64,000 nt of DNA, taken from positions 19,041,936 through 19,105,935 of the forward strand of contig CAIIXF020000006.1 of NCBI GenBank assembly GCA_903813345.2, in the 5' to 3' direction. Made by a program: the position numbers and the translations under genes. This DNA comes from Owenia fusiformis. Its lineage: Eukaryota > Annelida > Polychaeta > Sabellida > Oweniidae. Shown here one piece after another: positions 4,491 through 61,910 of this stretch. Under the pieces are notes generated by a model, which worked only from the letters and a program-made list of their open reading frames with translations, had not been told where the DNA came from and did no database searches. Every line of letters starts with the position of its first letter. Position 1 is the stretch's first letter.

Positions 4491-5315
4491 TACATATTAC
4501 AAGTATTCTAGACATGTGGGTTTGATATTAGTAACTTTTGATATCAAATCCATATTCACAGTGATATCATCTTGAAAAAATACTTGAATCGAGGAAATTA
4601 TTTGAAATTATTTTACTGACATAATAAAAGTATATTACACATATATCCTTTTACATATCCTTTTGTATCAGTATTCAAGTTCAACAAGAACAGAACTGTA
4701 TTGTACAAGCACCTTTATTAATTTGCATAACATAAAGTATTACATACAAAAGAAAGAAAATATCTAATGTTAACATTATTATAAGCCAACAAAATATAAC
4801 TATACCTTCCCAAATATTACATTTTTCACTTATTGATTTTTAAATATATATAAATATATTTTTCCATTCATTTTCTGATATACCATGCAGAATGGAAGGA
4901 AAGGAATGGTATACTTTGAAAAATATAGACTACTACTTATCCACATACCACTGTATTATGTATATGTATATATACTGCTACATACAATCATTATATAATC
5001 ATATTTAATTATTAGAAGTAAGACAAGATTAACAAATAAAATGCTAAACTCTTGATTACGTATTGCAATAGTGAAAAAAGCAAACACTAGAACACAATTA
5101 ACTAATACAAATATATGACATATCTTTGCTTCATGAGCACTTTAATTAAAGGACGAGGATTTCATCCAGAATATATTTCACAATATTTCATGAACTGAAC
5201 ATCTTTGGGAATCTCATCATAATTGCTTTTAATTGGCATATATGCATGTTCTGTATTTAAGTTACACACTATTTAAGTTGAACAGAAACTGAAGCATGCA
5301 AAGATACACAAATAA
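4491..5315. other. AT-rich spacer, nothing recognised
   Basis: No coding or repeat structure was identified. It lies downstream of the minus-strand LIM gene and could hold distal 3' UTR, but no polyadenylation site can be chosen with confidence. Confidence 0.35.
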
Positions 5316-30767: not shown

Positions 30768-33700
30768 ATGGCGGATGAGGAGAGAGACCCTACTTGCAAC
30801 CCTGTAGAGCCTTTACTACAGCATGTAAGTTATGCACATACATTTGTATTCGTCATAATTGTTGCTCTTGTGTTCTTTTGTGATTAAGAATATCTAATGT
30901 ACCATTCTATTTGCAAAATTCGGTAAATTCGAGCAAAATCTAGCTCAAATGTTGTAAATAAAACCCGGAAGTAATGCTAAAATTCTGTGTACAGTTGGGG
31001 ACAAAAATAAATGACAGGTCGATTTTCGATCACCATTTCCTAATTATGGTGGTCTGAAAGCCCATAATTTCCAATATTGTCTAGATACATATCCCTTAAA
31101 ATTTGTATATTTTACATTTTGTATAATCGTATCCACTGATTTATGGCCTCTTGTAAATTCTCTTATTTTTAACATGGGAAATCCTCACTTCAGCAAATCC
31201 ACCTGTCATTTATTTATGTCCCCAACTGTAGCCTACACAATCAACTAAAAGAGGCGTGCAAAAATAAACCTTGGCTCAACCTCATATATATAACTCTTTT
31301 AGATTTTTATTCCAACAAAGGGTCTTCCATGGATTAGCCAGGCAGCCTTTGATAAGCAAATGTAAACAGTAGTCTAGTATGCGCTCTGGCTTATTTTCAC
31401 TTACTCGAGTCTCTAGCCAATACTTGGATAGAGGGGATTTCATCTGAATACTGTGAACTCTATTTGAAAAAAGCTGGCCGTGGTGTCATAAATTTATTGA
31501 ATATTTTAAAAATCGCCAGATAAATAAATCATTTATCAAACCGGACCCAGCTCGGCTCCTTGATGAGATATGACATGATTTCATCAGGATTTCGTCTAAA
31601 ATTAAAACAAAATGGCTCCAAGAAAAATGGCGATGTTCGAAAACTGGACGAAATGTCGTTAAAGTCTGACATTAGTAACTGGCTGTAAATTCTAAGTTAG
31701 CGATCCAGAAGATGTGAACTAATACACTGATCACTTTATGTGTGTTTTGGAATTTTTTGTGAGGTAATAAGACCAAAACTCGCAATTCAAATTGTGATGT
31801 GGAAAAATGGCGGACATATGATTTCAAATTTTATGATTACGACATGACCAGTTGTTCATGCAGGAATATATCTGTACTGGAAGGCCACGATACAGTGGCC
31901 TTAGAAGAAGGTAAATTTCACCATCAGATCACGAGACTCATGTGCAATAGCCATGAAGAAATGGAATGGGAATTTTACTTTAACAACCTGGTTATATTAT
32001 AATCGGCTTATCGTAGAACTTCCCATTATCCGTGTCTGTAGCTCTCCCATCAAAGTAAATGAGTGTCGATATTTGAGCAAATTTTGTTCCTGTTTTCTCA
32101 CCTGTGAAAATTCCCTTTTGCTTGAACTGGGACTAAAAGAAGCGGGTGGGTTTAGGTAAAGACTATATCCTCTATTATTTTTTCATGGCCTGACTCTGTC
32201 GGTAGAACTTGAAGTATAAGTCGAGTAACCTGGAGATTAGGAGTCTTAGTTACCCTCTAGAGGTTAGATTTCAATGAAACCCTATCACCTTTTTTGCATC
32301 AACCATATAGCATTTAGCACAATATCCAAAAGGTTAAATATGAAACGCGAAAATAAATGATTTTCTTGTAACTTCCGGAAGTTTTAATCCTATAAATTAC
32401 AAACATTTGTGAAAATTGAATGTTTGTTCGTTTATAATTTACAAGTGTGTGTGTTCTTCTATACTTTGGTCTAAATTATAAAGCATCACAAACAGGAAAC
32501 CATAATACAAAGACTAATACAGCAAACGACCCATTCATACTTTCTGCGTAGCATTTCATTCATACCAATAGTTCCACTGTAGATCATGCATTTTCTTCCA
32601 TCTTAGAACAGGCCATCCTCCTCTGCCCTGTCCTAAACTCATCTGCAAACGACCGCAAAACATTATTTTCTAATATTATAATTATTTCCACATCAGACAT
32701 GGTTGGATGACATGTCACAAAATTAAAGTTCAAGGGTCAATACATTATATTTCGTGATTTGGGCAACGCCTTCCCGGAAGTAACATGAAGAAAATTAAAA
32801 GTCCAAAAAGCATTTATACAAATTTCAATCAAGTTCTGTGTTTATACTTCATCATGAACAAAACAAAGCTGATATTGTTTCATTGAAATTTGTGTTCTAA
32901 CCTCTAGAGGGTAAGTAAGGCTCCTAATCTTCAAGAAACTGTTATATAAGTTCTACAGACGTAGTCAGGCCATGAAAAAAATAATAGTCAAAATGGCCGA
33001 TAGAGTAAATTAATTTGCATATTAGTTACTTTTCCAAGCTTTATTTCCATTTGACAACATGCTTTATGGGTATTATGCAACATACTTTTTATAGCATTTA
33101 ATTGTACCTCACTACTTAACTGAATTGTTGTAATGTTTATTTTTGGGAAGTGAAGCTTCCTAAAATTGATAATTTTGTGCACAAAAAGTTTTTTCCCACA
33201 ATAGGGACATGATGATCAAAAGACCGAATTCTCAAGATAATTGGTGTATTGGATATAGACTAGGTTTAGATTGGCAATATGTCTTCAGGACATATCAATA
33301 ATGCATTTTATATATGAAAATTTGCCAAAAATCAAAAAAATGTGAAAATTGAAAGTTCCTGCAGGATATGCGCATTTGAATTTGTAGCAGGGATTTTCAA
33401 TATTAGATATCTATTCATTCGTAAGAGAGATTAGAAATATTGATCATATATAGACAGAATAAGGACATATTAATATCTAGCAACAAAGATGTAAATTTCA
33501 TATGGATATTCCAGGCTGAGTATAAGCCCTATCCCACTCAACCAAATTACCCAACACAGTCCAACTTTGAGGGGCATGGACACAGTCACAGCCATGAACC
33601 TGTCAATCATCCACCAGCCCCGCCTACCACTGAGCCTGAAGACACTTCAGCATGGGATATAGTAAAAGCAACACAGTATGGTGAGTCTACTCAGTGTATT

Positions 33701-36700
33701 TGACAAATAAGATTTTATTTGAGAATGATGAATCAAAAATCAAAATAGTTGACAATAATGAATAAAAGGTATATTCATCAGTGTTAATGCACAATGTGTT
33801 CACACCAACTCATAAATCACATGGCAAATGGCTGAAACTGAAATCTGTTTAAAAAATTCAATAACGGTCTAAATTTCTTTGACAGTGTCTTTAAAATCAA
33901 TGTATCTTGTTTGTCGCAAGATGCACATAACATAAAGCATCTTTGATGAAGTTTAAATTCTTTTTTGTATGACCCCTCCCCTAAGAGATAGTCAATTAAA
34001 AAGGTAGCCATAATTTGGCTATTTTGAGTTCTCAGAGTAACATGTACATCAAACATGTGGTTTATTCTTAATCTAAGTACTGTATGCTGCAATTTGATTT
34101 AACAGTTTTCTCTAGATATACATTTTAGTTATAATTAAAACACATATTTTCTCTGACCCCCCCCCCCTCCTCCAGGTGTATATGACAGATGTGTGGAGCT
34201 GATTGAGGCTGGGCATGATGTAAACCAACCAGATGCGGAGAATGTCACTCTCTTACACTGGGCAGCAATCAACAATAGGCAAGATATTGTCAAGTAAGTC
34301 ATCTAACCTCTTATTAAGGTAAACCGAGCGGGTAATTTTTATAGACTTATTAAGGTAGTCCAAGTTGAATGAAAAATTTCACTAAAGAATCAAGTTAATA
34401 ATTGACATCTAAACAGTTAAGGTATGTCAAATTAGACTAGTAACATGAAACAATGAATTATGTACAGTACTATTGCAGATGGTTATACAGTCCTCTTTTT
34501 TAAAACAAAAGCTGAAATGCATTTCACAAAATCATTGAATTAAATTCACTTTCAGGTACTACATGAACAAGGGTGCCATAATAGATAAGCTAGGAGGAGA
34601 TTTGAACTCTACCCCTCTACACTGGGCTACAAGGCAGGGGCACCTACCCATGGTTGTGCTGCTGATATCATATGGTGCTGACCCATCTTTGAGAGATGGA
34701 GAAGGTAAATGGAGGTGTCATTAATGGAGAAGTTGTACAGTTATGCTCCTAAATGGAGAAGGTGTACAGTATACTTCTAAATAGAAAAGGTATATATACA
34801 GTATGTACTTACATGGAGAAGGTATACAGTATGTACTTAAACTAAGGTATACAATATGCACTTAAATGGAGAAGGTATACAGTATGTACTTAGATGGAGA
34901 AGGTATACAGTATGTACTCAAACTAAGGTAAACAGTATATACTTAAATGGAGAAAGTATACAGTATGTACTTAAATGGAGAAGGTATACAGTATGTACTT
35001 AAATGGAGAAGGTATACAGTATGTACTTAAATGGAGAAGTTATACAGTATGTACTTAAATGGAGAAGGTATACAGTATGTACTTAAATGGAGAAGGTATA
35101 CAGTATGTACTTAAATCGGAAAGGTATACAGTATGTACTTAAATGGAGAAGGTATACAGTATGTACTTAAATGGAGAAGGTATACAGTATGTACTTAAAC
35201 TAAGGTATACAGTATATACTTAAATGGAGAAAGTATACAGTATGTACTTAAATGGAGAAGGTATACAGTATGTACTTAAATGGAGAAGGTATACAGTATG
35301 TACTTAAATGGAGAAGGTATACAGTATGTACTTAAATGGAGAAGGTATATCACTCTCAACTGCGCACAATTTTATTATCCCATCGAACGAAGTTCGGAGG
35401 GATATAGGGAACGCCTCCGTCCGTACGTATGTCTGTCCGTACGTCCTTCCGTCCGTCCGTCCGCCCGTCCGTCCATCCGTCCGTCCGGGTAATAACTCAA
35501 ATACCGTTGGCCCGATTTTGTTCATATTTTGTACACATATACCTTATGGGGGTAGAAGTTCTGCTGGAAAGCTGATTTTCAAAATGGCCGCTCATTTCAA
35601 AATGGCGGCCATTTTAGTGCCAATTTTACAGTAATTTAGGTGCAATATGTAAAACTGTTATAGCAATATGTTTTAAATGTAAAAAAATTATAAAGGACAT
35701 TAATAATGCTACAAATGTAGATATTAAAGAAGCACATGGCAGCCATCTTGAAAAATGGTGGCCTTTACTCGTCATTTTACGATTTTTGCTATAACTCAAA
35801 AAATAGTGGAGCGATTTTGTTCATATTTGGTATGTAGTATAAGCATTGTACACTGTCTTAAGACACGGAATTATTACACCAAAAGTAGTGCGAAATGGCC
35901 TTTTCACGTGTTAGCATAAAGTTTTGATGACATTTAAAGACCTCATGATATGGGTACCAAATTGAAGAGGACGTGACAAGCTTTAAGATGGAACCAAACA
36001 TGTGGCCATTCATTTGATTAAAATGCTAACTTGAATAAGCCCAAAAGGTGTGTCACTCCCCTACCCCATCCATTTTTCAGGCCAGTGAAAAACACCAAAA
36101 TCTTAAATAATGCAGGCATCTTCAGGGGTCGTTTTTTGGCCCCGTTTTATTCAAAATATCATGTTTCTGGATACCATTTTTATCAGAAATGTCTCAATTA
36201 CCTAAAAACAGTTACACTAGTGCTGCATAAGAAAACTTGTCTCCATTATGGAATTATTACACCAAAAGTAGTGCGAAATGGCCTTTTCACGTGTTGGCAT
36301 AAAGTTTTGATGACATTTAAAGACATAGTTCCTCTTTCACGTATATTATCTCATGGAAATGGGCATACCAGCGCAAAGATCTTAGTTCCGTGGTGAAGAA
36401 AAGCCATCAAACATTGTCTGAAGAGCAGATTTATCTCCTTAATTCTACTTTTAACATGGCGACCTTGACCTTGAAAAAATATAGCCATTTGGGCGATAAT
36501 AGGTGATTCAAAAGTGAAAATGAGTGCATTTTTCGTAGTTTTACTTTGACCAAGCCTAGAAAAAAATCGAAGTGGTAAACCTATTCCCAATTTTTGATAT
36601 TTTCGTTGTCTAGAAGTGCCCTAGATGATATCAAAGTTTAAGAAAATTTGTATGTCTAGAAATATTTTATAAATTAGTGCCAATATGGTGGGTTTGGGTG

Positions 36701-39700
36701 TTTTTTTGCTCTAATTTTTTATCCCATTTCTACGGTTGCCATGGCAACTATAAGGCTTTGGTAACCATGCCAACTTGATTTTTGAAGGACATCCACCTGA
36801 TAGTAGTTGGGCCAAGTTTGATGGAAAATGGGCATGGTTTGATATGCTGACAGTGAGGTTGATTGTGGCATGTAGTAAAACGGCAAAAGAATGGTGGAGT
36901 CATACCACACTTTTGGTAGAAGGTGGCCATTTTGAAAAATGGCCGCCATTTTAACGTATTTTACTATAACTCGAAAAGTAGTGGAGCAGTTTTTTCGTAT
37001 TTGGTATGTGAATACTATAAGCACGGCACACTGCCCTATGACACTTTTGGTAGAAGACGGCCATTTTGAAAAAAAAATTGAAAAATGGCCGCCATTTTAA
37101 CATGTTTTACTATAACTCGAAAAGTAGTGGAGCGATTTTGTTCATATTTGGTATGTGAATACTATAAGCATGGCACACTGTCCTATGACACTTTTGGTAG
37201 AAGGCGGCCATTTTGAAAAAAATTTTGAAAAATGACCGCCATTTTAACGTATTTTACTATTATTATCGAAAAGTAGTGGAGCAATTTTGTTCATATTTGG
37301 TATGTGAATACTATAAGCATGGCACACTGTCTATTTCTAATGACACTTTTGGTAGAAGGTGGCCATTTTGAAAAATGGCCGCCATTTTAACGTATTTTAC
37401 TATAACTCAAAAAGTAGTGGAGCGATTTTGTTCATATTTGATATGTGAATACTTTAAGAATGGCACATTTTCTAATAAAACTTTGGGGAGTAGTCTGCCA
37501 TTTTGAAAAATGGCCACCATTTTTATGTGTGTTATTTTACAAGTGCGTGTGCGATTTTTCAAAAATTTTAGAGGTGGCTACTGAAAAGCATATTATTTCT
37601 TCTGATGACAACTTGGCTAGTGAGCAACCATTTTGAAAATGGTGGCCTTTCTTATGTGTGTTGTTTTATGATATTTGCTATTCGTTTGTAAAAATGCCAG
37701 CCATTTCTGTTCGATGGGATTCGCTACGCTTTGGTGTTGCAGTTGTTCTGGTTTTGCTTAATTTGACCAGATTTGTTCACAGAAAAGTAAAGTTATGCAC
37801 TTAGTTTAACGAAATCAATCAGCTTTAAATTTCTTACATAGTATGACATTTTCAATGAGGTAAATAGAATTAACAATATACCTCAATTTTATATCCCAAC
37901 CTCACTATAAACTAAAATCTATGCAAGGATAGCGCTGAGGTATACAATCTACTCTGTCAACCTCTTGATAAGTAATCAAATGCATCCTATCTGCACAGGT
38001 TGTAGCTGTATTCACCTTGCTGCCCAGTTTGGCTTCACTGCAATAGTTGCGTACCTTATAGCCAAGGGACAAGATGTGGATATGCAGGATAAAAATGGCA
38101 TGACTGCACTCATGTGGAGTGCATACAGGGTGTTTAAGTAAGTGACATTTCAGTAGCTTGTCATTTGAGTTGTTAGTCATTCGAGTAAATCTAAATTGCT
38201 CAAAAACTTACATTTCTGAAAATGTGGCTGGGATATATTTATGTTTGGATACGCATATCAGGAGTCTTTACTAGGAAGGTAACAAAAACATATTCCTTTT
38301 GGACTTTAAGAATTTCCAAAATGGCTTCCAATGCATATGAGGCACCTGATATGTTGAAAAAGACAATTTGATTACTATGAAGTTGATTTTAAATACATTA
38401 GCTTTTTGATACATATTGGTGGAAAAAGCGCAGTGATCTGTAATCTGAGAAAAAGATCTTCCATCTAAATTGTGACATTAAGATTTGCTGTACTCGTAAC
38501 TGCTACAATGCGAATAGTTAGTACAGTGTGCTTCATCTGTGAAAAAAGTTAATGGTTCTTCTTTTGATAAAAATGTTTTAGGAAATGAAGGTTTTAAGGG
38601 CAAATTATCATTACTTATAAAAAGTTCTGGATCTTTTTGATTGTACGTTCACAAACTGATTTTAGAATTATTGTTTTTTGTTGAAAATATACAAAATTAC
38701 TGTAAACAGTTGGTAGGTATTCATATTTATATTTAAAACTACTATGCAAACTGTAAAAAAATTGCATTATTTAACTGAAGTCTAATTTTTGGTCTGACCC
38801 CAAAGATGTATATCTGTTCCAGTCCTGACCCCACAAGGCTACTGCTGACATTCAATGCTACAGTAAATCTCGGTGACAAGTTCCACAAAAACACGGCCCT
38901 CCATTGGGCCGCTCTCTCTGGCAACCATGTTGTAGTTTCACTTCTCATACAAGAAGGTGCTAGTCTAGTCTCAAAAAATGACAAGGTAGGTTAATTTTTT
39001 GAAATAAGGCAAAGAGGGCTTATGAAGCAAAATACATTCATTGTGTACAAAACCTTAAAAGAGAAAAATCAATTACAAGAAGGTTCTTCTTTTGACATGT
39101 GACATTTCCACATGTCTTGTACAGCTCGTATGGCTAACTATTTAAGATTATGTTGATTATTTCACACATGTTTTCTTATTTTTTCGATGATTGTTAGATG
39201 TCAGTCAAATAGCATAGCTTATGTGCATTAATAGTGTTGTCCTAAAACTGTCCAAGGTTCCAGAAATAATTTGATGTCCATCAATTTTCAGTTTTCAGCA
39301 GTGACTTAAATCAGAAAGCATTCTTCAGTACATATATCAATATTTTTGTGTCACCACCAAAAAGTGGTGACATATTGTTATGGTCTTCGCTTTTTTTGTG
39401 GCAGCGGTTGGCGTCTGTACCTTGGTGTCTGTACCAAATTCTTAAAACTTCCAATAACATTACAAATACTGTTTATACTGACTTCAGTTGTTTTCAAAAT
39501 CATGTACAAGTTTTCAGAAGTTCAAATCTGACTTTAGATTTGACCTTCATTGACCTTCTCAAGGTGAAAAAAGGTCATAAAGGTCTTTTTCAACTTGCTT
39601 CAAATTGTCCAATTTTTTTATTCAAAATCATCTACAAGTTGTCAGAAGTTCAAATCTGACCTTAGACTAAAGATTTGAGTTTACCTTCAAGGTCAAAAAA

Positions 39701-42700
39701 GCTCAAAAGGTATTTTTTCATTCAAACCCATCTACAAGTTATCAGTAGTTCATATCTGACTATAAATTTGACCTTCAGTGACATTCTCAAGGTCAAAAGA
39801 AGATTTGACCTTCAATGACCTTCTCAGATTCAAAATCATCTACAAGATTGAACTAATAATATCTTGAGCAACTAGGTAGTGACATTTTGTCATGTTAGTG
39901 CCTTGTCTATTTTATACAGGATGAGTTAGCCTTGGACATAGCTAATCAGAAAAAACATTTTTGGATCTCACAGAAGATACAGAGTGCCAGAATCCTGAAG
40001 GGAATTGACCAAACAAAGATGTTACAGTCTATTACGTCTAATAAGGTACTGTATTTCATTCTTTTTGCTTTACATAAAATGTCATGAGGTACATGCAACC
40101 AGGTATACTACCTTTTCCCTTCTCTCAGTCTCAATCAACTTAAAATCTCATAACAAGGGGCACTACCTTTTTCATTCCCTTCACCTCCATCTATGTACAC
40201 CCTTTCCAATGATGTATCACACTTGGTACCAAATATCTTGGTTTTGGCTGTAGAGGGGGATGGGGCTTATTTGACACCCTGTATATACATGTACATATAA
40301 AATCTCATAATCTGCAATACCTTTTTTCATCTCTGACCATAACAACATGCTAACCTCCAATAAGTATGTTCATTCACTTCCAATTTAGAATACATTGTTA
40401 ACAATGAATATATAACATCTAATAAGTACAGTGAATATATAATTATAAGTTTCCAAACCATGCTTTTTGAAAGTCAATAGTTTCCAATATTGTCTAAATT
40501 ACATATCAGCTAAAATTTTGTATATTTTACATTTTGTATACTCTCATCCACTGATGTATGGCCTCTTAAAATAGTCTTATTTTTAACATGGGAAATCCTC
40601 ACTTCAGCATATCCAGGACTCCTTTATTTTTGGTCCAAACTGTACATTACTATACATTCTCTTAGCCCTTGTCTACATGGGTTACTTTCAATTAGGTATC
40701 ATATTAAATTCCTTGAATTCAGTTTATAATACATGGTTGAGCAGTTAATATGAAACATCTAAAAAAGTATGTCCAGTAAATATATAACAACCTTTCAGGT
40801 ACATGTACATGTATTTATATCATATTCTTGTCCTTAATCCATATGTAAAACATTTCATGAATAACTATAATTCCATTCTCTTGGCCCCATATCTACATTT
40901 GTAACTATCAATTACAGTAGAACCTGTATATCTGAACACCTGGCTAATCCGAACACCTCCCAATCTGAAACCTTTTTTCAGTCACATTATTTCCTCCCAT
41001 TGACTCCCATGTTAAAAAAAGAACCTTGAAATGTGAACACCTTGCAATTTGAACAGTGAACAGTCATATTTGAAAGATTCACCTGTCTAATCTGAACACT
41101 TTTCATAAAATTTCCTGTAATGCCATAAAGCTATGTGGTCAAAAGAATTATAAATGTAAACATTTTGAAATGGCTGCAAATTTTCAGAAAAAATTTAATA
41201 ACTTAAAATTTTGACTCTTATTTATAATTTCTTGTTTATTTTCAGACCTTACGGCGGAGAGTGATGCAAGGTTTTCCATTTGTCGTCTTCTTTCTGATTG
41301 GCTTCATCTGTGAGCTGGACGCCACCTGGTGGTTAAAACTACTTATGTTTGGTTTCATGACACTCGGAATGCGAGTTGTTGGAAAGTAAGTCACCCTTCA
41401 TATTGGATGCAATAAGTGGAATGTAATGAAAGTGATGATCAAAAACATGATCTAAAAGCTATATCTTAAGATTTAATGCTAAAATCTTAAGATGCAATGA
41501 AGATTATTGAATTATGAAGATGCAAAGCACATGACATGTTTGTATTGCACAATGTCATAAACAGGTATTATGTGCAGTATATACAAAAATAAGAAAGATT
41601 CATTACAAACCTTTCAGAATGTTTTGATGAACAAATGTTTACTTTGCCTATTTTAGAGATAAAATTTGAAGAGTAAGAATGACATTCATTTGACTCTGCC
41701 TTTCATAAGGGAGCAAAATGAGGGTACGAATGAGTGGAATGATATCTTAAACATTTGCCTTGATCTTTCAGAGAGGAAGGGATCTGAGGCCTTAATATTT
41801 TGACAAAGTCCCTTGCAATTTAATTAAGTTATAGTATAGAAGCTTATCCTAGTAGACCATGCTAAATATTCTCTTACATGCTCTGTGTTTGCATGTTTAG
41901 ATTCCTTATGTTGATTATAGAATGCAAAGTTGTGGCTGTAGCTTTATTACATTTATTATCCCACCAAATGAATTAATGCGATTATATGATATACTGTGTT
42001 CTGATTGGCTGGAATAACGCAGATGCGAGTAGGTAGTTACCAATTTCACCACCAGGTGGCTCGTTCGGGTCAGATAGCATGGCGGGTATGGTAGAAAGTT
42101 CCCTTTAACTTAAATTACATCTGTTTTGGTGGTTCAATTTTGATATAACCCTCATGTATCTAATAGTTATGCTAATTAAAAAATGTCCAGTGAAGGAAAA
42201 TGATATTTGTCGATTACAAGAAAATATATTTCACTTTTTGTGACTTTGTAACATGGGGTCTATGGGGATTCAACCCGAACTAGAAATCACATTTTCAAAA
42301 TAAATTAAATTTTCAAAGTTGATAAACAATTTTCGAAACCATATTTCTAGATGTACTTTTACATGTAGATTTCAAATATGACATCACTTTGACTGAATTT
42401 TGAACATTTAATGACGTAAATCAAGGTTATTTCTACTCGCATCTAGTTTATTGGACATGCCTTCATCGCCTTGCCCTAGCCATGTGTGACTATCATTCAT
42501 TTAACTTTTGAAATTCTCCCGAAAGTTAAATGCCAGTTTGTTTGTATTACATTGCCAATCAAGTGCCAGTTCTATCCATTAGTATATGCAGATCTGCTTT
42601 TTACACCATCTAATCAATCTATATTCCTATATACTACCTGTTCACCTGCCACCTGTCACCCTATTGTATGAGAGGAAGGGGTCACATAACTGCCTTGTCC

Positions 42701-45700
42701 AAAAGTTGAACATTTGAATGTATTCAAATGATGTCTTAATGAAGTAGAATATCCTCTTTGGCTCAAGTTTTGTCTTGCATGTTTAAATTTGCCTCACTAG
42801 ATATACCTCTGAGGCTATATATAGGTTGTCTCAAAAAATGTACCCAAAAGAATATCAACACCATAGACAAACCAATCAATATTTTCAGACATTTTTGCAT
42901 GGTCTTGTAGATAAAAGATGAAAGTTTTTTCCCCTATACTCAGTTTTTAATTCAGTTTTGCCTTTTTGATACTTTGACCCGTTACCTTTTACACCACATA
43001 TTCAATGTAACCTCATATTTCGATGATAGTATGCATCCTTACTACTACATTGTTCATCACATTTGATATTTCTGGTGGAATGTTTTGATTTCTGTTCGGA
43101 TGCTGGTCTTAAGTTGTTCTAGGTCTCTTAACTTGGGTTTAGCATAAAAATGGTCCTTTAAATAGCCTCAGAGAAAAAAGTATGGGCCGTCAAATATGGT
43201 GAATAGGGAGGCCCTCACAATGTCTTATAGCCCCCTTATACAAAGAGGTCAGAGGTTCAAAAAACTGATTTGGTTGGGATTCTAGTGTAGCTTCTGTTGT
43301 GTGTATCAATTTGAGACCACTGTGCTTTCATTTGGATATCATTTGGTCTCCAGGCTAGCCTGCCTAACTCTGGAAGGTAACTCCTGAATCATTTGCCGAT
43401 AATTGACCTTATTATCTGTGTTTGTTCTGCCATCGTCATCCTCAAACATCTTTCTCTGTGGCTATTTGAAGGAGTGTTTTAATGCTCATTCCAAGCAAAA
43501 AGACCTAGAACAACTTAAGGGCAACATCCAAAGAGAAATCCAAAACATTCCACCGGAATTATTACCAAATGTGATGAACAATGCAACAGTAAGGATACAG
43601 GCTGTCATCGAAATATGAGGTTACATCGATTATGTGGTTTAAAAGGTAAAGGGTTAAAGCATCAAAAAGACAAGACTGAAATAAAAATGGTGTATTGGGG
43701 AGAAAACTTTTATGTTTTGGCTACATGACCATGCAAAAAATGTTTGAAAATATTGATTGGTTTTTCTGTGCTTTTGATATACTTTTGGGTACATTTTTTT
43801 TGAGACACCCTGTACTTCTAAGAGCATAGCAAATTTAGTGTCATTTTAAAACTGGGAATATTCAGTGGATGCCAGTGAAATAATTTTGATTTTTATGATT
43901 AAGGCTGTATTTATGTGTAACCACAGAGCAAGTGAATTACGTTATATGAGTGAGTTTCTTTTGGGATCACGAAAAAGAACAATAAGCCCTTCAGTGCAAA
44001 TTACATGCTCATATGTTTTCAACAAAAATAGCTCATCCAAGTGAAGTGCACTCACATATTTTTTAAGGATTTAAGTATTTATTGCAATGAAGCTCCAGTG
44101 GTACATTATCACTCTTAAAGGTTGATCACTTTTGAATTGATTATTGTTTCGGATATAATTTCCTATTTAACCTTCATTTAATAGCATCTGACGGAATAAC
44201 AAATTTATATGTAGGATGATATTATAATTAAAGTGGTCCCATGAGTCGGACAGAAGCATGGCAAATGTCATAGATAAATAAGAAAATGAAATACCAATAT
44301 CCAAATGTGTTTCAAGTACTGAACATATATGATTTAATTAGAAACTGAGCCATGGGCGTAGCGCCCGGTACGCTGGGTACGCACAGGCGTACCAGATGGT
44401 TGCAAATTCGCTCTAAATACAACCATATTTCAAAATTTTCCAGGGGGAGAACCCCCAGACCCCCCTTAATGCTCGTTTTTTGATTCACTCAACTCTTGTT
44501 CCTGTGGTGGTGGTGTACTACTTAGAAAAATAGCGCTACGCCCATGTGAGCAGTTCTGTCAGGAATTGCACTCTAGAGATTGCTATCATGTGATAGTTGT
44601 TTGTAATGAGTGTTGCAATAAGGTTTTTGCAGTGCTACAAAAGTAAAGATATTATTCCTAAAATCCTGATTTTAAAGGTTCATGTTGTTAATCCTTGCAG
44701 TTTGATTGTTTGGCATCGAGACCTCATTACATTACAAAAGAAATGCCCTTTTGTGTCCATGTAAATGGTCCTTTGTAAAAGGGACAATTTTGTAAGTTAC
44801 AGTGGGGGAGGTTTAAAAGGTCTGAAGTCAGAACGAGGCCCTATGTTAAAGTGTCTTTCTAAGACTTAGAAGGAGAAATGTGAGATTTCGAGCCATATGT
44901 CTCAAGAAAATGCTCTTACCTTTCTAGTAGGATGAGTTCAGGTGCCAAAAACAGCTGATCAAAGGATATATATCATTTTCTAATTGAAAATTTTTGTTGA
45001 GCCCTGCATTTTTAACACTGTTTTGACAGGAAGTCATACCCAAAATGAAAACTGAATAAAACAACATTTATCCTAAATGTAGATCAAAATACTTACTCAG
45101 ACATGCAAAATGTTATTATTAGTAGTAATGCTGATAATTTTTAAGAAATTTAAGCATGTAAATAAGACTTTTTTCATCCATGATTATATAGATAAAGAAT
45201 TTCTTTCTTCAGGAAGCTTTGGCAGTTTGGTGTAGTGGTTAGAGCTTTGGGCTCAAACAGACTTTTATTCCAAAAGATCTGGGTTCAAATCCCTCCGGGG
45301 GAATATGTTTTTATTCTTTATTTTTGTTTTTTTTCATTTTGATCCACAATATTTCTAAAATAAAGTTTATATATGGCACTTAAACCATATTTAGTATTTT
45401 CGAGGGTTTTAATTTTTAGATGAAATCATAGAAAGTTACTTTAAAGTAATTGCTTTTTGCACCTCATGAAAAGGGATATGTTTTATCTGATTTTTTTTTT
45501 CTTTTTTCATAGTGACGTGCTTATATTTGAGGATGTCACAGGTGATTCCTGTGTGAAGTCAGGAATGATGTGTTTTGGCCTATCAACAAAGTTCTGGCTT
45601 TATTCCACAATATTCTACGCTTTTTTACCCTATATCCTTTTCATCTCATAGTATACAGGTTGTATCCACCCTCCATCTTACTATGTCTTACCAAATGGTA

Positions 45701-48700
45701 TTAAAAGTTGCGCAAAGGGGCTTCTCTGTATGATATAGGATTTCACTATATGTAATATAAGTTAGGCCCTTTGCTGTAGCCACAGTATGGTAGGGTATGG
45801 ATACATGCTGCTGCAATTAATTATGCATATTTGAAAGAAGGCCAGTTTTTTAAACTTTGATTCAATGATAACCTTCATAATTATGCTTTTTGATATACCT
45901 GTCCAAGAAGAATTGCTTGAATAAGAACTATGGCTCGTATTATCACCAGATTCCACTTTATGTTTCCAAAAATGTTTTTTTCACACCCTATCACATCTAT
46001 TGCTTTTTAAATGCTTACTATTTAATGGACACCCCAGGAAAATTAGAAGTGCTTTGTTTCCATTTCTTTGGGATTTATGTTCGATTTCTAAATATATTGG
46101 CTTTTATTATGTCCCCACCACATAGTGTGGGGCCATATTGTCGGCCTAGGCGCGTCCGTCTGTCTGTCCGTCTGTCTGTCCGTCCGTACGTCCGGCAGTT
46201 TTCTCCAAAACCGCTACAGATATCATCTTCAAATTTTCAGGGATAACTTATGAGTGCATACAGATGTGGATGAAAAAAAATTAACTCAATACCTACTTCC
46301 TGTCGGCCATTTTGAAGTCAAATGCTAAAATCCTTGTCTGCAAACTTTAAGAAAAATGGCTTCACAGTTGCTTTTAAAACTTTAACATCTTGTTCAGCTC
46401 ACTTCATTCTAGATCTGATTAGGTTTTGGACCTGTTAGCTCAGTCATGTCAGCCATTTTGAATGTTTTAAGAAAAGTTAGCGCACGATAATACTTTGTAT
46501 CATATTGAATGGTGTTTTTCAGTTTTCATACTTTAACTTTTTAGTAGCTTTATAAATAATTTCAGGTGTACTTTGTTGTAAAAGCTTATGTTATTGTTAA
46601 CAGTAGTTATATGTGATAATTTTGTAAAACGGTTTCAGCAAAAACTCATAATCACTTTTTTATTGTCGGCCATTTTGGATGTTTCCGTCTTAAAATCTTG
46701 TCTGTAAAGTCTTGTCTACGCATTTTCAGGCGAACCGTTTGGTAGATCAATTTCAAATTTTCAGGGATGATTCTTAGTATGAGAATCTAGATCTGATTAG
46801 TTTTTGGGCATTCTGGGTAAATGTCAAGGCAGCCATTTTGGATTTTCCGTCCTAAAATCTTGTCTGTAAAGTCTTGTCTACGCATTTTCAGGTGAAATGT
46901 TTGGTAGATCAATTTGAAATTTTCAGGGATGATTCTCAGTATGAAAATCTAGATCTGATTATTTTTACGGCATTCTGGATAAATGTCAAGGCAGCCATTT
47001 TGGATTTTCCGTCTTAAAATCTTGCCCGTAAAGTCTTGTCTACGCGTTTTTAGGTGAACCGTTTGGTAGATCAATTTCAAATTTTCAGGGATGATTCTTA
47101 GTATGAAAATCTAGAACTGATTAGTTTTTGGGCATTCTGGGTAAATGTCAAGGTAGCCATTTTGGATTTTCTGTCCTAAAATCTCGTCTGTAAAGTCTTG
47201 TCTACACATTTCCAGGTGAACTGTTTGGTAGATCAATTTCAAATTTTCAGGGATGATTCTTAGTATGAAAATCTAGAACAGATTAGTTTTTGGCATTCTG
47301 GATAAATGTCAAGGCAGCCATTTTGGATTTTCTGTCCTCAAATCTTGTCTGTAAAGTCTTGTTTACATGTTTTCTGGTTAACTGTGTGACGGATCAATTT
47401 CAAATTTTCAGGGGTGGTTCTTAGTATGAAAATCTAGAACTGACTAATTTTTGGGCATTCTTGGTAAATTTTAAGGTGGCCATTTTGGATTCTCCGTCCT
47501 CAAATTGTGTCGGTAAAGTCTTGTCTACTCATTTTTAGGATAACCATTTGACAGGATCACCCATAGGTGGGGACATATTGTACACATTTGTGTTCTTGTA
47601 TAACGATGCATAGCCATAATTTATTAATTATACAGATTTGTTTGCTTTATCATTCTGTATTAGACATAGAACCCAATCTCATATTTGACATTATGGCCAA
47701 GTTAGCATCATAAGAATTCACACATGTCAGTTGCAATAGTTGTGTAAATTGCCTAATCCAATCATAGCAGTTGTATTAAATTGCCCAAATGAATCACAAC
47801 AGTTGTTATTAAAATTGCCCAAACCAGTCACAATGGTTTTGTTATATTGCCAAACGAATCACAAAAGTTGTGTTAAATTGCCCAATCCAATCACGGCAGT
47901 TGTATTAAATTGCCCAAATGAATCACAACAGTTGTTATAAAATTGCCAAACCAGTCACAATGGTTTTGCTATATTGCCAAACGAATCACAAAAGTTGTGT
48001 TAAATTGCCCAATCCAATCACAGCAGTTGTATTAAATTGCCCAAATGAATCACAACAGTCCATCTATATCTCTAACTCTAACTACTCCCTTATATATGGC
48101 AGGTGACATGATGTTTTTGTAATCTCCACTTTAACTCTGTATTATTCTACTATAATAATTCATTTTTCTCTTTTACTTTTAGCAATATTTTATTAATCGA
48201 TCTGAATACTGGCTATGTTGACCCTGAAGATGAAATCCTTACACGTGTTTTACCTATCAATATTGGCCTCTGCACAAAATTCTGGTGCTACTCTACATTT
48301 TTTACAGCTTGCTGGCCTTATATCCTTGACAAAAGTACAAAAATCTGTCTCTCTGTATTGATTTTTTCATTATTCTGATACACATTTTTGCTTATATCAC
48401 AGAATGAGTCCTTTTCATGGAAGCAAGAGTTTTTTCTTGCAATTTGAAATCTACATTCCATATATTTGTTTGAAATGTATCAGATAGTTGTTATTTACAA
48501 CATATTTGACAAAATATTTTTGTGTCCAGCTTTTTGTAATGTGTTTTGTCTTCTTTTTGCTTGCTACTTGTATGTCAAAATAATGAATGATAATCTTCCC
48601 ACCAAACAAAGTTAAGCAGAGGTTTGAGAGCCTTTCCCAATTTATAGTTTTCCCTTTCATGTGTCTTGGCGATGACTCCAATACTAATAATTATACTCGT

Positions 48701-51700
48701 CAGATTTGGTTTGAATTTTGCATGCTGATGCCTTACGGGCTTAGTCCATGCATTTATCAAAAATTAAATGCACAGCAAAATCATTTTCATGCGTATATCA
48801 ATAAATTAACGCACTGAAATGCTTTAAGCTGATTGGCTGAGACACAGTTGGCATGTTTGATTCACAATTAACACTACCTAGTTGTGCACATCATGTCACA
48901 GAGAAATCTAAATTAATGCTTGGTCCTCCATGAAACATTTTCACCACATAATACACAGTTGCTAATTTCAGACAGAAGCAACCCCCATGCTATGGCCTAA
49001 TAATAATCATTCTCTGTAGGACTTTTGTTGTAATACAGTTCTAATCCAAAATCTTAAAACTTCTTAAAAATGGTGCAGATAATGTCCAACACTTCACATC
49101 TGAAAGATTGTTTTTTAATAGAACCACCTGTATTGTGTGGAATTCTTGATATTTCTTCTTACAATGTCATGCTCCTGCACTAATCAAAATGAGACAATCT
49201 ACCTGAAAATCTTACAGAATTTTTTTAATATAATTTGCACTCTGTTATGTGCTCATATGAGTTAAAGTGAAAAATCACTGTTAAGTATTTACCTTGGTCA
49301 AAAGAGAAAATGTTTTAAGAAAGTTGTCTTTGAATTTAAAACTGATGAATCAGTAGATTTTTTATTGTTTATTTGTATTAGTTGCATGCATGCTCAGCAC
49401 ATACAATGTGTATCACTAAATTTATTTAAGTATTTAAGTTTGATACATAGGATATTATTTGTTTACTCTGTTGTATATAAGATAACAATCCAAATATTAT
49501 GTATACCTTTGGCTTAGACTTTGTATAATTATTAATTAGCACTTAATATAGGCTAGAAGGTAGCAATAGCAAAGATATGCTTGATGAAAACCAAAAATTA
49601 TAAACTGTAGCCTTGCATTGAGCCCCTGTGCTGTTCTCCCCTCATTCTTTGAAAAATAGTCTTGCTCAAAGACTGTATCCACCCCCCCCCCCCATCACCT
49701 TCACTCTCTTTACCTGGCAATATACTAGAGAGAAGGATAAATGGGGGGGGGGATGAGTACAGGGTCTTTTAAGCAAGACTATTTGAAAAAGAAACTGTGT
49801 ATGAGAACAACGTAAGTTAGGGGAACTTGATAGAAGACTACAAAAACTGATTCTAATATGTTAACCCGACCACATGTTCAATCTACTAATACCAAAGCTA
49901 TGCATGATATTTGGGTATGGTTACGTAGAATTTCTTGACACTAACTTTTCTGAACTTTCTCTCTTTTGCAGAACTTTCTTCGATCCAACAGCCTACTCGC
50001 TGGTCATGCCCGTCGCCCTTTATTTGACCACCAAATTCTGGATGTACTTTACCTGGTTTTATTACCTTTGGAACTATATCCTTTTGCACCAGAATGCAAT
50101 TTGTAAAATCATCAAATGGTTTTCAACAATAGTAATAATAAAATTCGAAAGATTGAGTCAATATATATTTTTTTTAAATGGAAATGTATAATCTTTGTAT
50201 CTGATACTTTGATTGGTCAGTTGATGTTAAGCAATTAGAAAAAAGATTTGAGTTGAAATGTCAAATAGTCAGGTCATAGTGATGGTTTCTGCAATTGGTA
50301 TAGTTTCCAATTAATCTTTCCGTTCCGGTGTTCTAATGGGACTCACCAATCACAATATTTAGTTAATAAAAGTTAATGTTTTCACGTCACATATATTTGA
50401 AATTTAATGGGTGATAATAGGTCAAACTAGGACAATATTCTTAACTAAAGAAGCTTTGGAAGTATGAAAAGAAGAAAAACAATGCATAATAGTTTGCTAT
50501 CATATACAAAATTTAAACCTCAAGTCTGACATTTGGCTGACAGTTTAAGTCTATTCACATACTGTATTAATATATTATGTGATTTACTTATAATGCTGCA
50601 ACTTTATTGTATTCAGTTCATTGCTCAAATTTTATCGCAAAACATTTTGCATTGTCACAACATCCTGTTTTTAAATATTGATTCTGGGATGACCTGTTTT
50701 ATAGTTGCTTTACAATGCATGCGCTTTTGTAATGTGTATATGTGTCACATGATTTATCAGTTTAGAATATTCATTTTGCATGATTATTTATAGTTTATTC
50801 AAGTCAAGCAGTTTTGATATTAGAGCATAAAATGATTATTGTTTTGCCTTGTTGATCTGTGCTTAATGTCTATGCATTTTTCTGTTCATGCTTCTATGTT
50901 ATGTTATTTCTTAGTTTTAATTGCAGTCCATATATGGTATATTCAATGCAAGCCAAGGCGTATTTTATACCAATTGAAAGCTTCTTAATCCAGACTTTTA
51001 GAATGTATTGATTCTATGTGTTCAAATTCAGTAATGCCATCATATGTTCAGTATTTAAAATGAATGATTTTGTAGAGGCCTTAAAAGTGCATTTTTCTAC
51101 TACACTGTACCTTAAAATAGTGTTTTTGCTGCTTATTCTAGCAAGATTCTCTTGGGCCATATTATTTCGTGAAATCTTTCTGTACTATATTTTACCTTTG
51201 AAGGGAAGGTTGTTAACGATTCAAAATGAAGAATTTCTAAACGGTCTCCATAAATGGAAATATTCCTTAACTATACCACATATCAACACTCTGACGATTA
51301 TGATACCATTCAGTATTGATACCATGTTTTTAACGTACAACTTCGTCAAGTGCTGGAAGATAGACCCTGGTACCATCAAAACCACTAGGGACGAGAAAAT
51401 AAGGGTAAGACCTCAGACAAGCTTGCTTACTATACTGTATCTAGTAGAGTAACTTCACAAAATGTTTTACATATCCTGTTTTTTTCTTTTAAAGAACAGA
51501 AAGTACATATATTAGAAAATACTCTTTCATTGTTTGATATATTTATAGACTCAAAAGATGGCAGCACCTCTTGATTTATTATATGAGTGTTTTATCATTC
51601 ATGATGCGTTTTCTTCATATTGAGCATTCTATTGTGTATACCATAAATGCGATGCTGCATATTGGAACCAGTTATTGGATTGTAACAAATTATCTCTAAA

Positions 51701-53263
51701 TATCACATGTACATATAAAACATCATTCATTCCCTTGAAATGAGAAAGATACATTTTCTAGAGAATCATAACTGGAACGAATGTCTTATTTGTTGATATT
51801 TCAGTCAAAGGTGGGAAATAGTGTTATGATATATCAATATTTAACTGCTTCATTTTCAGGCAGTTCTTGAGATGTCAGAACTACAGATGTTTGACATGAC
51901 TCAATTCTGCAGTACATGTCTGATTAGACGCCCTCTGAGGTCTAAACACTGCTCTATATGTAACAAATGTATAGCCAGGTTTGACCACCATTGTCCCTGG
52001 GTGGACAATTGTATTGGTAAGTTTTGCAGTTCACGTCTTATTAGGTGCTCTCTTAGGTCTAAACACTGCATCGTAGCTAGGTTAGACTGTTATGTAAAGT
52101 AAAGGGACCTTCCAACTTTCATTAATCCTCATTATTTCCAATATATGACCCATTTTGAAATGCAATATTCTGTGATTGATTTATGTATTATGAGAATTTT
52201 CATCAAGAAAGATATATTTTCAAAATTGACCCCTTTTCAAATAATCCAAAATGCATGAAAATATCAGCTATCATGTAACATTCTACAATTGCATGTGTTA
52301 CAATTTATATTTTTATTTTAGGGGAGAGGAACCATAAATACTTCTTAGGATACCTGTTCTTTCTGTTTATTGCCCTGATGTACTGCATGTATGGTTGTGC
52401 ATCATGTAAGTTTATTTTTCCAAACTGTATACTTAATTTCTTGAAACAAGAAGTAATATTACACGCCTACAAACAGTGTGCCTGTGTCTATCATTTTAAA
52501 AGGTTTACAAAAGACAAATCAGTAAATCATGACACTTATTATCTGTTAATTAATAAAAAGTTTTTTTGAAGTCTTGTGGCTCGCTCCATCAACAAAACAG
52601 CAATAATGAAGTATGAACCATATGGGTTTTGAGGATAATTTGATACAATTATTTTTCTGGTAATTATTTATAGATTGGCATTTTACCTGCTTGGCGCATT
52701 CTGTTGATGAGAGCTATATGGTTATACTTGGCAAAATAATGTCCTGCTCACCATGGGTGTTCTGGATTGCCTTCAATACAGGTCTACATTTATTCTGGAT
52801 CGGAGCTCTTCTTGGATTCCAGCTTTACCAGGTATATGTCATCTATATATGCCCTTACATTGTATACCCATCGTGTACCTTGAATAATATGCTGCCATTA
52901 TGCTCAGTATGCATGATGACCTCTTGAATCCCATGCTTTAAAATTGGTTTGAAACCAGAGCATTTCATGATGCTTAATTTAGTGAAATTTAGCGATCATT
53001 TCTACACATTTTAGAGTAAATTAGACAGAATTGTTCAAATTAGACACTGAAATGCACATTTATTTTGAGTATATCATACCACGTTTTTTATTATAACCGG
53101 AAACTTTGTAATAAAATCAAAATCTAATTTTACTGCCACGTAATACTAAAAAATTCTGTCTGTAGATCATGTGGGTTGGTGCGACAACAAATGAGAAGAT
53201 GAATATGCCTCGTTACAAACATTTCCACACGTCCAAGCAAGGTGTCTACAATAGTCCCTTCCA
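30768..53263 (+). CDS. ZDHHC17: Palmitoyltransferase ZDHHC17/HIP14 (3' end missing)
   Basis: Exons: 30768-30824, 33515-33680, 34176-34293, 34556-34704, 37999-38137, 38823-38985, 39920-40045, 41246-41385, one of three exon 9 versions, 51280-51404, 51860-52016, 52322-52405, 52674-52831, 53166-53263. With 9c this gives 594 residues; the human protein has 632. Residues about 65-300 are ankyrin repeats. N107 and W137 match human N100 and W130, which bind substrate peptides. Six membrane segments follow, with the DHHC-CRD between TM4 and TM5: C446, C449, H459, C463, C466, and D471-H472-H473-C474 (catalytic Cys). TTxE is at 569-572. The family S-palmitoylates proteins such as SNAP25 and huntingtin at the Golgi. 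Exon 14 ends in phase 2 and the final exon was not found. Confidence 0.95.
30992..31228. mobile_element. Mariner-type MITE in ZDHHC17 intron 1
   Basis: The ends cagttggggacaaaaataaa and their inverse at 31203-31228 form terminal repeats of about 27 bp flanked by TA (30990-30991, 31229-31230). A diverged copy of the body is at about 40484-40640. Confidence 0.8.
34699..35349 (+). repeat. Minisatellite of 28-bp units made from the exon 4 splice donor
   Basis: About 20 head-to-tail units containing atggagaaggtatacagtat with ttaa-containing joins; some units carry an 'actaagg' variant. The array begins at the end of ZDHHC17 exon 4, where the exon/intron junction itself reads gatggagaag|gtaaatgg. 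Each unit therefore repeats a GAGAAG|GTA donor-like junction. Confidence 0.9.
35376..37725. repeat. Long composite interspersed repeat in ZDHHC17 intron 4
   Basis: It is bounded by ttatcccatcgaacgaagtt at the left and ctgttcgatgggattcg at the right, with a (gtccgtcc)n microsatellite at 35415-35485. The middle (36245-36755) is the inverted relative of 28110-28585. No coding signal. Confidence 0.65.
36880..37480. repeat. Internal tandem array of about 150-bp units
   Basis: Four or so units, each with acacttttggtagaaggcgg, gccgccattttaacgtattt and aagtagtggagcgattttgt blocks, at about 36900, 37045, 37190 and 37345. They lie inside the larger repeat 35376-37725. Confidence 0.8.
39345..39905. repeat. 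Interspersed repeat (caccaccaaaaagtggtgac) in ZDHHC17 intron 6
   Basis: It begins with a hairpin caccaccaaaaagtggtg and carries repeated 'gaccttcaatgaccttctcaa' blocks about 100 bp apart. Similar 'gacctt' blocks occur in 56400-57240. Non-coding. Confidence 0.55.
40915..41110. repeat. Fragment of the cagtaaaacctg-end MITE family
   Basis: It starts acagtagaacctgtatatct and continues with 'ctgaacacc' blocks that recall 4349-4490. The right end is not clear. Confidence 0.4.
42002..42450. mobile_element. Inverted-repeat element in ZDHHC17 intron 8
   Basis: gatgcgagtagg near the left pairs with tactcgcatc near the right (about 42436). The left flank 'tgttctgattggctggaat' also occurs at about 22208. 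Non-coding. Confidence 0.4.
42826..43815. mobile_element. Palindromic mariner/Tc1-like element
   Basis: The ends are tgtctcaaaaaatgtaccca and its inverse (ending at about 43810). The right arm (about 43450-43815) encodes the tail of a mariner/Tc1-type transposase ([10 protein letters not shown], then IQNIPPELL at 43403-43618). The left arm (about 42826-43160) is an inverted copy of the same transposase tail, including the 'ctagaacaacttaag' block. No DDE core remains. Confidence 0.75.
44352..44547. mobile_element. MITE with catgggcgtagcgc inverted ends
   Basis: The left end catgggcgtagcgcc pairs with gcgctacgcccatg at the right. The body has a gagaacccccagacccccc segment. This type of sequence is widespread in invertebrate genomes (from memory). 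It lies in ZDHHC17 intron 8. Confidence 0.75.
44850..45440 (+). mobile_element. TTAA-flanked element with tRNA-like promoter, copy 2
   Basis: Near-identical to 2523-3110 over the whole 591 bp, flanked by TTAA at 44846-44849 and 45441-45444. A-box TGGTGTAGTGG at 45228-45238; B-box GGTTCAAATCC at 45282-45292. It ends 72 bp before alternative exon 9a of ZDHHC17. Confidence 0.8.
45513..45631 (+). CDS. ZDHHC17: ZDHHC17 alternative exon 9a
   Basis: Follows a pyrimidine-rich tract and TCATAG acceptor. It accepts phase 2 from exon 8 and leaves phase 1 at the U12-type donor ATATCCTTTT (45632-45641). It encodes 39 full codons covering a loop and TM3: [14 protein letters not shown], then [20 protein letters not shown]. 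It shares TKFW-x-Y with 9b and 9c. The loop sequence is unlike 9c, the version closest to human. Confidence 0.85.
46112..47590. repeat. Composite repeat with six or so 160-bp tandem units, in ZDHHC17 between exons 9a and 9b
   Basis: Bounded by tgtccccaccacatagtgtg at the left and cccataggtggggacata at the right, with a (gtccgtct)n stretch at 46155-46195. From about 46660, units of about 160 bp repeat blocks gccattttggattttccgtc, taaagtcttgtctacgcatt and aaattttcagggatgattct. Non-coding. Confidence 0.8.
47730..48060. repeat. Higher-order tandem repeat (about 32-bp subunits in 129-bp units)
   Basis: Subunits of the form cacaacagttgtgttaaattgccc vary in a fixed order, and the order repeats after about 129 bp, giving about 2.5 units. 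It ends about 120 bp before exon 9b. Confidence 0.85.
48183..48319 (+). CDS. ZDHHC17: ZDHHC17 alternative exon 9b
   Basis: Acceptor CTTTTAG (48176-48182), phase 2 in, phase 1 out at the U12-type donor ATATCCTTGA (48320-48329). It encodes 45 full codons, the longest version. An acidic loop (TGYVDPEDE) is followed by [19 protein letters not shown] as TM3. The length keeps the frame (137 nt; 9a is 119 and 9c 104, all 2 modulo 3). Confidence 0.87.
49651..49790. mobile_element. Short inverted-repeat element with C- and G-runs
   Basis: aaatagtcttgctcaaagac pairs with gtcttttaagcaagactatt at the right. The interior holds a long C-run (49681-49693) and G-run (49743-49752). It lies between exons 9b and 9c. 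Confidence 0.6.
49972..50075 (+). CDS. ZDHHC17: ZDHHC17 alternative exon 9c (human-like version)
   Basis: Acceptor TTTTGCAG, phase 2 in, phase 1 out at the U12-type donor ATATCCTTTT (50076-50085). It encodes [19 protein letters not shown] followed by [16 protein letters not shown], which follows human ZDHHC17 residue by residue (FLSKSFFD, then ATKFWMYVTWFF). It is therefore probably the ancestral version of TM3. Confidence 0.92.
50076..51279 (+). other. U12-type AT-AC intron of ZDHHC17
   Basis: 5' splice site ATATCCTTTT, branch-site TTCCTTAAC at 51263-51271 and 3' AC at 51278-51279 give the minor-spliceosome consensus with a branch-to-acceptor spacing of about 9 nt. Joining 9c to 51280 gives an ungapped match to the human protein across the junction (WNYIN against WNDLN). 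The same acceptor serves 9a and 9b. Confidence 0.88.
52019..52085 (+). pseudogene. Degenerate partial duplicate of ZDHHC17 exon 11
   Basis: Immediately inside the intron after exon 11, ttttgcagttcacgtcttat and aggtctaaacactgc repeat the exon's zinc-finger segment ([16 protein letters not shown] read as [16 protein letters not shown]). The copy lacks the DHHC motif and the last Cys ligands and has no donor. Confidence 0.75.
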
Positions 53264-60791: not shown

Positions 60792-61910
60792 CTTGCAATA
60801 TCCTATATTACTGTGGTACTAAAAACAATTTGTGAATGATTGCTGTTTAGTTCAACACATGACTCTTTGAATGTGAACAGATAATATATACCCTCTGGTC
60901 AGAAAAATCTGTGCAGCATCATCATCATCATCATCATCTAATACAATTCCTATCCTATCAACCCAATTCATTCATGTGCATGAACTAGAATCTATGGATG
61001 ATGACATTGAGGTCTTGAGATCTTGAGATTTTATGAGAAATTCAGAAAAAAGTTCCAAACAAGATATTTCTCATTTAATATTTCAATTAAAAATGAAAAA
61101 TAGGCAATCTTAAAACATTAAATAAAAATTAGATGACTGAAATTACTGGCCTCTGAGCAAGAACACCTAAAACACTGTACAAAGTTCCATTAGACAAATT
61201 CTCAAGATATTATTAAGACAGCAGAATGAGCAGTCAAAAACATTGTACTAGTATGTATGACATGTGATATCAAAGTCAAATATTTAATAAAGAGGTGGAC
61301 GAAGAAGAGAGAACTGTTTTTTGCTTATTTATCTAGAGATTTCTTAGAATGGGGGTATGAAAAAGCATAGTATGCGATTGCATTGCACGTAGTTCCAAAA
61401 AATCACTTAGAAGGTGCAGCCATACCGAAAGATGAGTTAAAGGTTGTTGGGACACTTCCTCAGTAATAATCTCAACCCCTGTATTCTCACAAAAAGATGT
61501 TATGGGTTTAAACAAATGATGTATAACCCTTTGATCCATATGCAAATCTTACATTTTCTTTTCTTTCACAATTTGTAATTGACCATGATAAGAAAAATAT
61601 TGAATGTTCTGTAAGAATTCGGTACAACACTGTCATCCATATATTGTAGCTTATGTACATGAAAATGAAGCTGATAATATATGGATTAAAGAAATTGTTT
61701 CATTTTTCAGGCTACTCCCAACTTTTTATAATGATTTTGATTTTAATGATACATACAAATATAATACTTTTTTGAATAATTAAAACTAAAATGTTGAACT
61801 TATATAGGCATTCCATATTGAGTCACACATTTTTTGGCCAGAGGGTATGTCATAAGATAGTATGTCATAAGATAGTATGTCTTAAGAGTAGTTAATGTAC
61901 TATTTGACAC
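60792..61910. other. 5' flank of the UGT gene, nothing recognised
   Basis: An (atc)n microsatellite is at 60917-60938. No upstream exon or promoter motif could be supported. Confidence 0.4.

Follow-up and report, generated by a model that had tools for sequence, protein, structure and literature searches.

We analysed a 64-kb window (the whole stretch of 64,000 nucleotides; G000:C6:19041936-19105935 of the 498-Mb assembly) from the annelid Owenia fusiformis, which carries the palmitoyltransferase gene ZDHHC17/HIP14 with three versions of one exon, termed 9a, 9b and 9c. The stitched translation of its ankyrin exons has as top PDB matches the ankyrin domain of HIP14/ZDHHC17 (3eu9, E 2.3e-116), the next match being a DARPin (E 1.1e-70), and the stitched protein matches Pfam ankyrin families and, in part, the DHHC domain (PF01529, 97.9 bits). 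Moreover, as in ZDHHC17/HIP14, the ankyrin repeats are accompanied by four hydrophobic segments, the third of which carries TKFW, and the DHHC domain comes after the fourth. Going by these matches, the gene with the three exons 9 is ZDHHC17/HIP14, and the name given to it in the first-pass annotation, whose exon numbers (8, 9 and 10) are kept here, is confirmed by both the ankyrin match and PF01529. Its exons and splicing signals are listed below in window positions (TM, transmembrane segment).

33425..40087, plus strand: ankyrin-repeat exons of ZDHHC17 (PDB and Pfam matches; individual borders by eye)
41246..41385, plus strand: exon 8, two hydrophobic segments, followed by a U2-type donor, AAA/GTAAGT, at 41386
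45513..45631, plus strand: exon 9a, 119 nt, loop and TM3; AG before, single copy in the genome
45632..45639, plus strand: U12-type donor of 9a, ATATCCTT
48183..48319, plus strand: exon 9b, 137 nt, loop and TM3; AG before, single copy in the genome
48320..48327, plus strand: U12-type donor of 9b, ATATCCTT
49931..49955, plus strand: latent U12-like acceptor, TTTCTTGAC (49931-49939) with an AC ending at 49955; 9.5 bits, a lead only
49972..50075, plus strand: exon 9c, 104 nt, loop and TM3; AG before
50076..50083, plus strand: U12-type donor of 9c, ATATCCTT
51263..51279, plus strand: U12 branch site TTCCTTAAC (51263-51271) and AC acceptor; top branch score on the plus strand of the window
51280..51404, plus strand: exon 10, TM4 and DPG motif, followed by a U2-type donor, GTAAG
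51860..52016, plus strand: exon 11, zinc-binding and DHHC catalytic motif (motif and Pfam matches)

The borders of the three exons 9 are those of the first-pass annotation, to the base. A DNA search of the genome for second copies of 9a or 9b returned only this window, hence a second allele is not available for comparison. Between 53000 and 63900 a motif search yielded one more exon-like piece but no last (C-terminal) ZDHHC17 exon.

Splice sites, frames and homology of the three exons 9

All three exons are entered in phase 2 through a pyrimidine-rich AG (pyrimidines make up 0.95 of the 20 nt upstream of it in 9a, 0.90 in 9b and 0.80 in 9c) and left in phase 1 through an identical 8-nt donor, ATATCCTT, of the U12 AT type. 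This agrees with the U2-type acceptors, U12-type donors and phases originally assigned to them. U12 AT-AC introns have a TTCCTTRAC branch site 10-20 nt before the AC, and the features of such introns are present here: the ATATCCTT donor, a branch site near an AC and no pyrimidine tract, the pyrimidine fraction before exon 10 being 0.60. The branch site before exon 10, TTCCTTAAC, is perfect and scores 13.9 bits, as computed, like the other bit scores given here, from a smoothed consensus; exon 10 starts 10 nt after its branch A, and the AC of the shared acceptor ends at 51279. Between 41386 and 51290, four sites on the plus strand reach at least 8 bits, among them that of exon 10 itself, one overlapping the donor of 9b and one at 49931. 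At 8-21 nt from the acceptors of 9a and 9b a good U12 branch site is absent, since 2036 and 536, respectively, of the 3231 AGs of the window score as high.

The three single joins (8-9a-10, 8-9b-10 and 8-9c-10) are open through exon 10, which bears out the claim that all versions fit the one AT-AC acceptor before 51280. The direct join of exon 8 to exon 10, the three double joins and the triple join all shift the frame into stops. The introns between 9a and 9b and between 9b and 9c measure 2551 and 1652 nt, respectively.

When the real region is scanned for exons defined by a pyrimidine-rich AG, the right phase, an open frame, a length of 80-160 nt and an [AG]TATCCTT donor, exactly 9a, 9b and 9c are recovered on the plus strand and none on the minus strand. 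Among 400 dinucleotide shuffles of 41400-51250, by comparison, four contain any exon obeying these rules, none contains three and none contains one carrying [TS]KFW. The three-exon array is not a product of chance. Over the last 22 codons, 12 residues are common to 9a and 9b, 9 to 9a and 9c and 10 to 9b and 9c, identities that are reached in 0, 3 and 0 of 20000 codon-order shuffles, respectively; judged by their sequences, the three are homologous tandem exons. ATATCCTT occurs 11 times on the two strands of the window, where 4.40 occurrences are expected. Two copies, 12 nt apart, are found at 4643-4662, outside recognised exons.

For all three pairs of exons synonymous divergence (dS) is saturated and hence undefined by the NG86 method, so that no ratio of nonsynonymous divergence (dN) to dS can be given; dN is 0.40, 0.58 and 0.66. 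The contrast between codon positions is clear for 9a/9b, where positions 1, 2 and 3 agree in 16, 15 and 8 of 22 codons, and for 9a/9c, where they agree in 10, 14 and 5. When neutral evolution was simulated to 0.5 substitutions per site, 30 (9a), 27 (9b) and 45 (9c) of 20000 runs retained acceptor, donor and frame together. The intact sites and frames, kept despite far divergence, favour selection on the exons without proving it.

The intron before 9a contains a large imperfect palindrome (42833-43814), which is likely a mobile element; its arms measure 177, 102 and 64 nt and are 79-91% complementary. A tRNA-like stretch at about 45220-45310, 200 nt before 9a, resembles a short interspersed element by eye.

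A proposed change of spliceosome at exon 9

ZDHHC17 probably carries a mutually exclusive array of three exons whose exclusivity is imposed by a switch from one spliceosome to the other. Sites of the U12 and U2 types have been described as generally incompatible (PMC3584512). The U2 donor of exon 8 would enter only an exon with a U2 acceptor, namely 9a, 9b or 9c, and the U12 AT donor of each of these would in turn enter only the U12 AC acceptor at exon 10. Each exon 9 would act as an adapter from U2 to U12, and once one had been used a second could not be entered. The layout goes further than the first-pass annotation had it, in that the U2 donor of exon 8 should be incompatible with the AC of exon 10 as well; both double inclusion and skipping would be blocked by a single rule, and one adapter would be required. 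Such a rule would hold for any number of copies, without RNA pairing, and an exon duplicated together with both of its splice sites would give copies that are exclusive from birth. The reading frame would provide a second lock, as failed joins would shift it and lead to nonsense-mediated decay. We infer from these sites and frames that the three versions would be used in RNA, would exclude one another in cells and would differ in function, and that failed joins would decay. The choice among the versions would have to be set by other regulators; RBFOX, Nova and related motifs number a handful each within 500 nt of the exons, mostly near the rate of the window, and we make no claim for a selector.

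The Rfam gathering score is reached in this genome by U12 (two matches), U6atac (two), U4atac (one) and U11 (two). In a profile search made stretch by stretch, CENATAC/CCDC84, a protein reported to be particularly needed for AT-AN introns (PMC8329584), gave three matches over the cut-off on C10. The U11-48K zinc finger gave four matches, which are weak evidence, the family having also matched one of 14 control genomes (an archaeon). Moreover, JNK, the classic example of the mechanism, possesses in this genome one such adapter exon, which combines a U2-like acceptor with a GTATCC donor (a U12 GT-AG intron) and has TTCCTTAAC before the next exon, and a single copy of this adapter is seen across the interval between the neighbouring exons. 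The U2-to-U12 site logic thus appears to be in use elsewhere in the genome, at JNK, and since JNK has one copy and a GT-type donor, the ZDHHC17 array is a separate case.

The mechanism itself is already known from exon pairs, and the first-pass annotation was right to be cautious on this point. Exons 6a/6b (7a/7b) of MAPK8 and MAPK9 (JNK) form an interlocked U2/U12 pair and are exclusive in mRNA (PMC8329584, PMC6717393). As at ZDHHC17, an upstream U2 intron is followed by alternative exons with U2 3' and U12 5' sites and by a single downstream U12 acceptor; the layout of this type is found at our locus, with tandem homologous exons, U2 3' together with U12 5' sites, a U2 donor upstream and a single U12 acceptor downstream. 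ZDHHC17 differs in being another gene and in having three such exons instead of two. Exons 11/11a of TMEM87A and TMEM87B have the same interlocked layout, and no reads joining 11 to 11a are reported (PMC6717393, Olthof 2019). These too are only two exons, both of 72 bp, whose double inclusion would keep the frame, whereas all double joins of ZDHHC17 shift it. In human, five clusters of mutually exclusive exons (0.79% of 629) have been attributed to U2/U12 incompatibility (PMC5740500), and PMC6071210 limits this mechanism to clusters of exactly two. With its three exons the ZDHHC17 array would depart from this "exactly two", a statement that concerns how far the mechanism extends and not how it works. 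No three-exon U2/U12 array was found in the open-licence papers searched, which is not proof of absence. Within the same literature, nothing was found for ZDHHC17 together with "U12-type" or "minor intron", and together with "mutually exclusive exons" one paper, apparently a lung-cancer fusion study. If the array of three versions is real, spliceosome incompatibility would scale past exon pairs, contrary to the printed limit of two, and duplication would at once make an exon exclusive wherever it is flanked by a U2 intron upstream and a U12 intron downstream; such arrays should then be sought at exons that combine a U2 acceptor with a U12 donor.

Alternatives to exclusivity by spliceosome incompatibility

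Several observations weigh against an array in which all three exons are used and the U2/U12 boundary is strict. The contrast between codon positions is weak for 9b/9c, which agree at 11, 12 and 10 of 22 positions. Neutral survival is not uncommon once the simulated change is only 0.25 substitutions per site (553, 438 and 520 of 20000 runs for 9a, 9b and 9c), and because it is higher there, the argument from decay depends on a large divergence. This leaves room for 9a, 9b or both to be relics, ancient copies of the exon that splicing has ceased to include in the mRNA, and 9c is presumably the version closest to vertebrate ZDHHC17. Yet in all three exons the frame is open and the phase correct, the pyrimidine tract is strong, the 8-nt donor is exact and TKFW is kept, their synonymous sites are saturated, and at 0.5 substitutions per site only 27-45 neutral runs in 20000 stay intact. 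That 9a or 9b is a relic therefore seems unlikely to us.

The remaining observations concern the boundary between the two kinds of site. U2 donors have been seen to use the 3' site of a U12 intron when minor splicing fails (MAPK12, PMC8329584), and JNK genes have been described with a hybrid intron that combines a U12 5' site with a U2 3' site (PMC3584512). In our locus, the latent AC that follows TTTCTTGAC lies 16 nt before 9c, with 18 nt between its branch A and the would-be exon, and joining 9a or 9b to this acceptor (at 49956) gives a frame that is open through exon 10. A further, weaker branch-like sequence, TTTCTGAAC, lies 18 nt from the AG of 9c, and 61 of the 3231 AGs of the window score as high. 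The 9c side therefore looks less cleanly U2-only than those of 9a and 9b. The array might accordingly be used without being strictly exclusive, if the minor spliceosome also joined 9a or 9b to the latent AC; the resulting double product would stay in frame and gain a membrane segment. However, of the 30 branch-like sites of at least 8 bits that the plus strand of the window contains, 26 are followed by an AC or AG at 9-21 nt, and since such sites are common the latent acceptor is only a lead. It also scores 9.5 bits, as against 13.9 bits before exon 10, and in its product the helices ahead of the active site, which is cytosolic, would be odd in number. We hold such leakage to be quite improbable.

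It is very improbable that exclusivity is owed mainly to competition between RNA pairings, to steric hindrance or to the removal of random joins by nonsense-mediated decay: all failed joins shift the frame, so that decay alone could give the pattern in mature mRNA, and 42 pairs of inverted repeats are present in the intron, but introns of 2551 and 1652 nt are too long for steric hindrance, among the 25 listed of the 42 inverted repeats no arm pairs with sites beside all three exons (no dedicated search for docking sites was made), and decay does not explain three AT-type U12 donors with a shared AC acceptor.

As to exclusivity by U2/U12 incompatibility, the proposal of the first-pass annotation is supported in part, by the gene identity, site types, phases, frames, homology and minor spliceosome, and is qualified by the latent acceptor before 9c.

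Predicted protein changes, other DHHC genes and neighbours

Under our own partition of each exon into loop and TM3, the loops of 9a, 9b and 9c are 18, 24 and 13 residues long with net charges of -3, -4 and 0, respectively, and thus differ in length and charge as previously noted. We take TM3 and TM4 of ZDHHC17 to be, by topology, TM1 and TM2 of the four-helix DHHC enzymes. The residue aligned to Ser29 of DHHC20, the x of the otherwise shared motif TKFWxY, would then be Leu in 9a, Cys in 9b and Met in 9c. Four of four alignment modes agree on this when the sequences are trimmed to TM3 onwards; with whole segments the two MAFFT modes disagree on Ser29, one choosing TM3 and the other the TM2 encoded by exon 8, and phmmer, untrimmed, aligns TM3 to the second helix of DHHC20. 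We infer the mapping from topology. In DHHC20, Ser29 of TM1 pairs with Tyr181 and closes the acyl pocket, and S29F favours shorter and Y181A longer chains (PMC9105814, PMC8059564, PMC9006032). Tentatively, and with far more doubt than confidence, these residues could point to a chain-length dial built by splicing, in which an open-ended array of U2-to-U12 adapters would exchange the helix lining the acyl-CoA pocket and each isoform would prefer a fatty acid of different length, with the charge of the cytosolic loop changing beside it. If so, one gene would put different lipids on one and the same set of substrates recruited by its ankyrin repeats, its exclusivity being hard-wired by the identity of the spliceosome. 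If the three versions are used, the first helix of a DHHC catalytic core would exist naturally in three forms, which would offer a direct test of how it sets acyl-chain and substrate preference.

Four other DHHC loci of the genome (L004-L007) were considered as ZDHHC17 paralogues with the same intron and rejected, the translations of all of them being without an exon-9 region. One of them, L005 (G000:C3:9642000-9646000), is a second DHHC gene, presumably ZDHHC1/11-like by resemblance; its first two helices are separated by a U12-like GT-AG intron in phase 0 and not in phase 1, whose donor is at 1349 and whose branch site is at 1753. Five DHHC matches in open frames of 382-401 amino acids follow one another along a single strand in 14 kb (G000:C4:17652099-17666189), apparently a cluster of intronless palmitoyltransferase genes.

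On the minus strand of the window, at 11075-13509, LIM-domain pieces resemble a CSRP gene, a neighbour of ZDHHC17, with PF00412 in one of the two fragments scanned. Human CSRP2 also adjoins ZDHHC17, and the neighbour pair may be old. Downstream of the ZDHHC17 exons, the minus strand carries a single-exon UDP-glucuronosyl/glucosyltransferase frame at 59211-60818 (PF00201, 6e-85).

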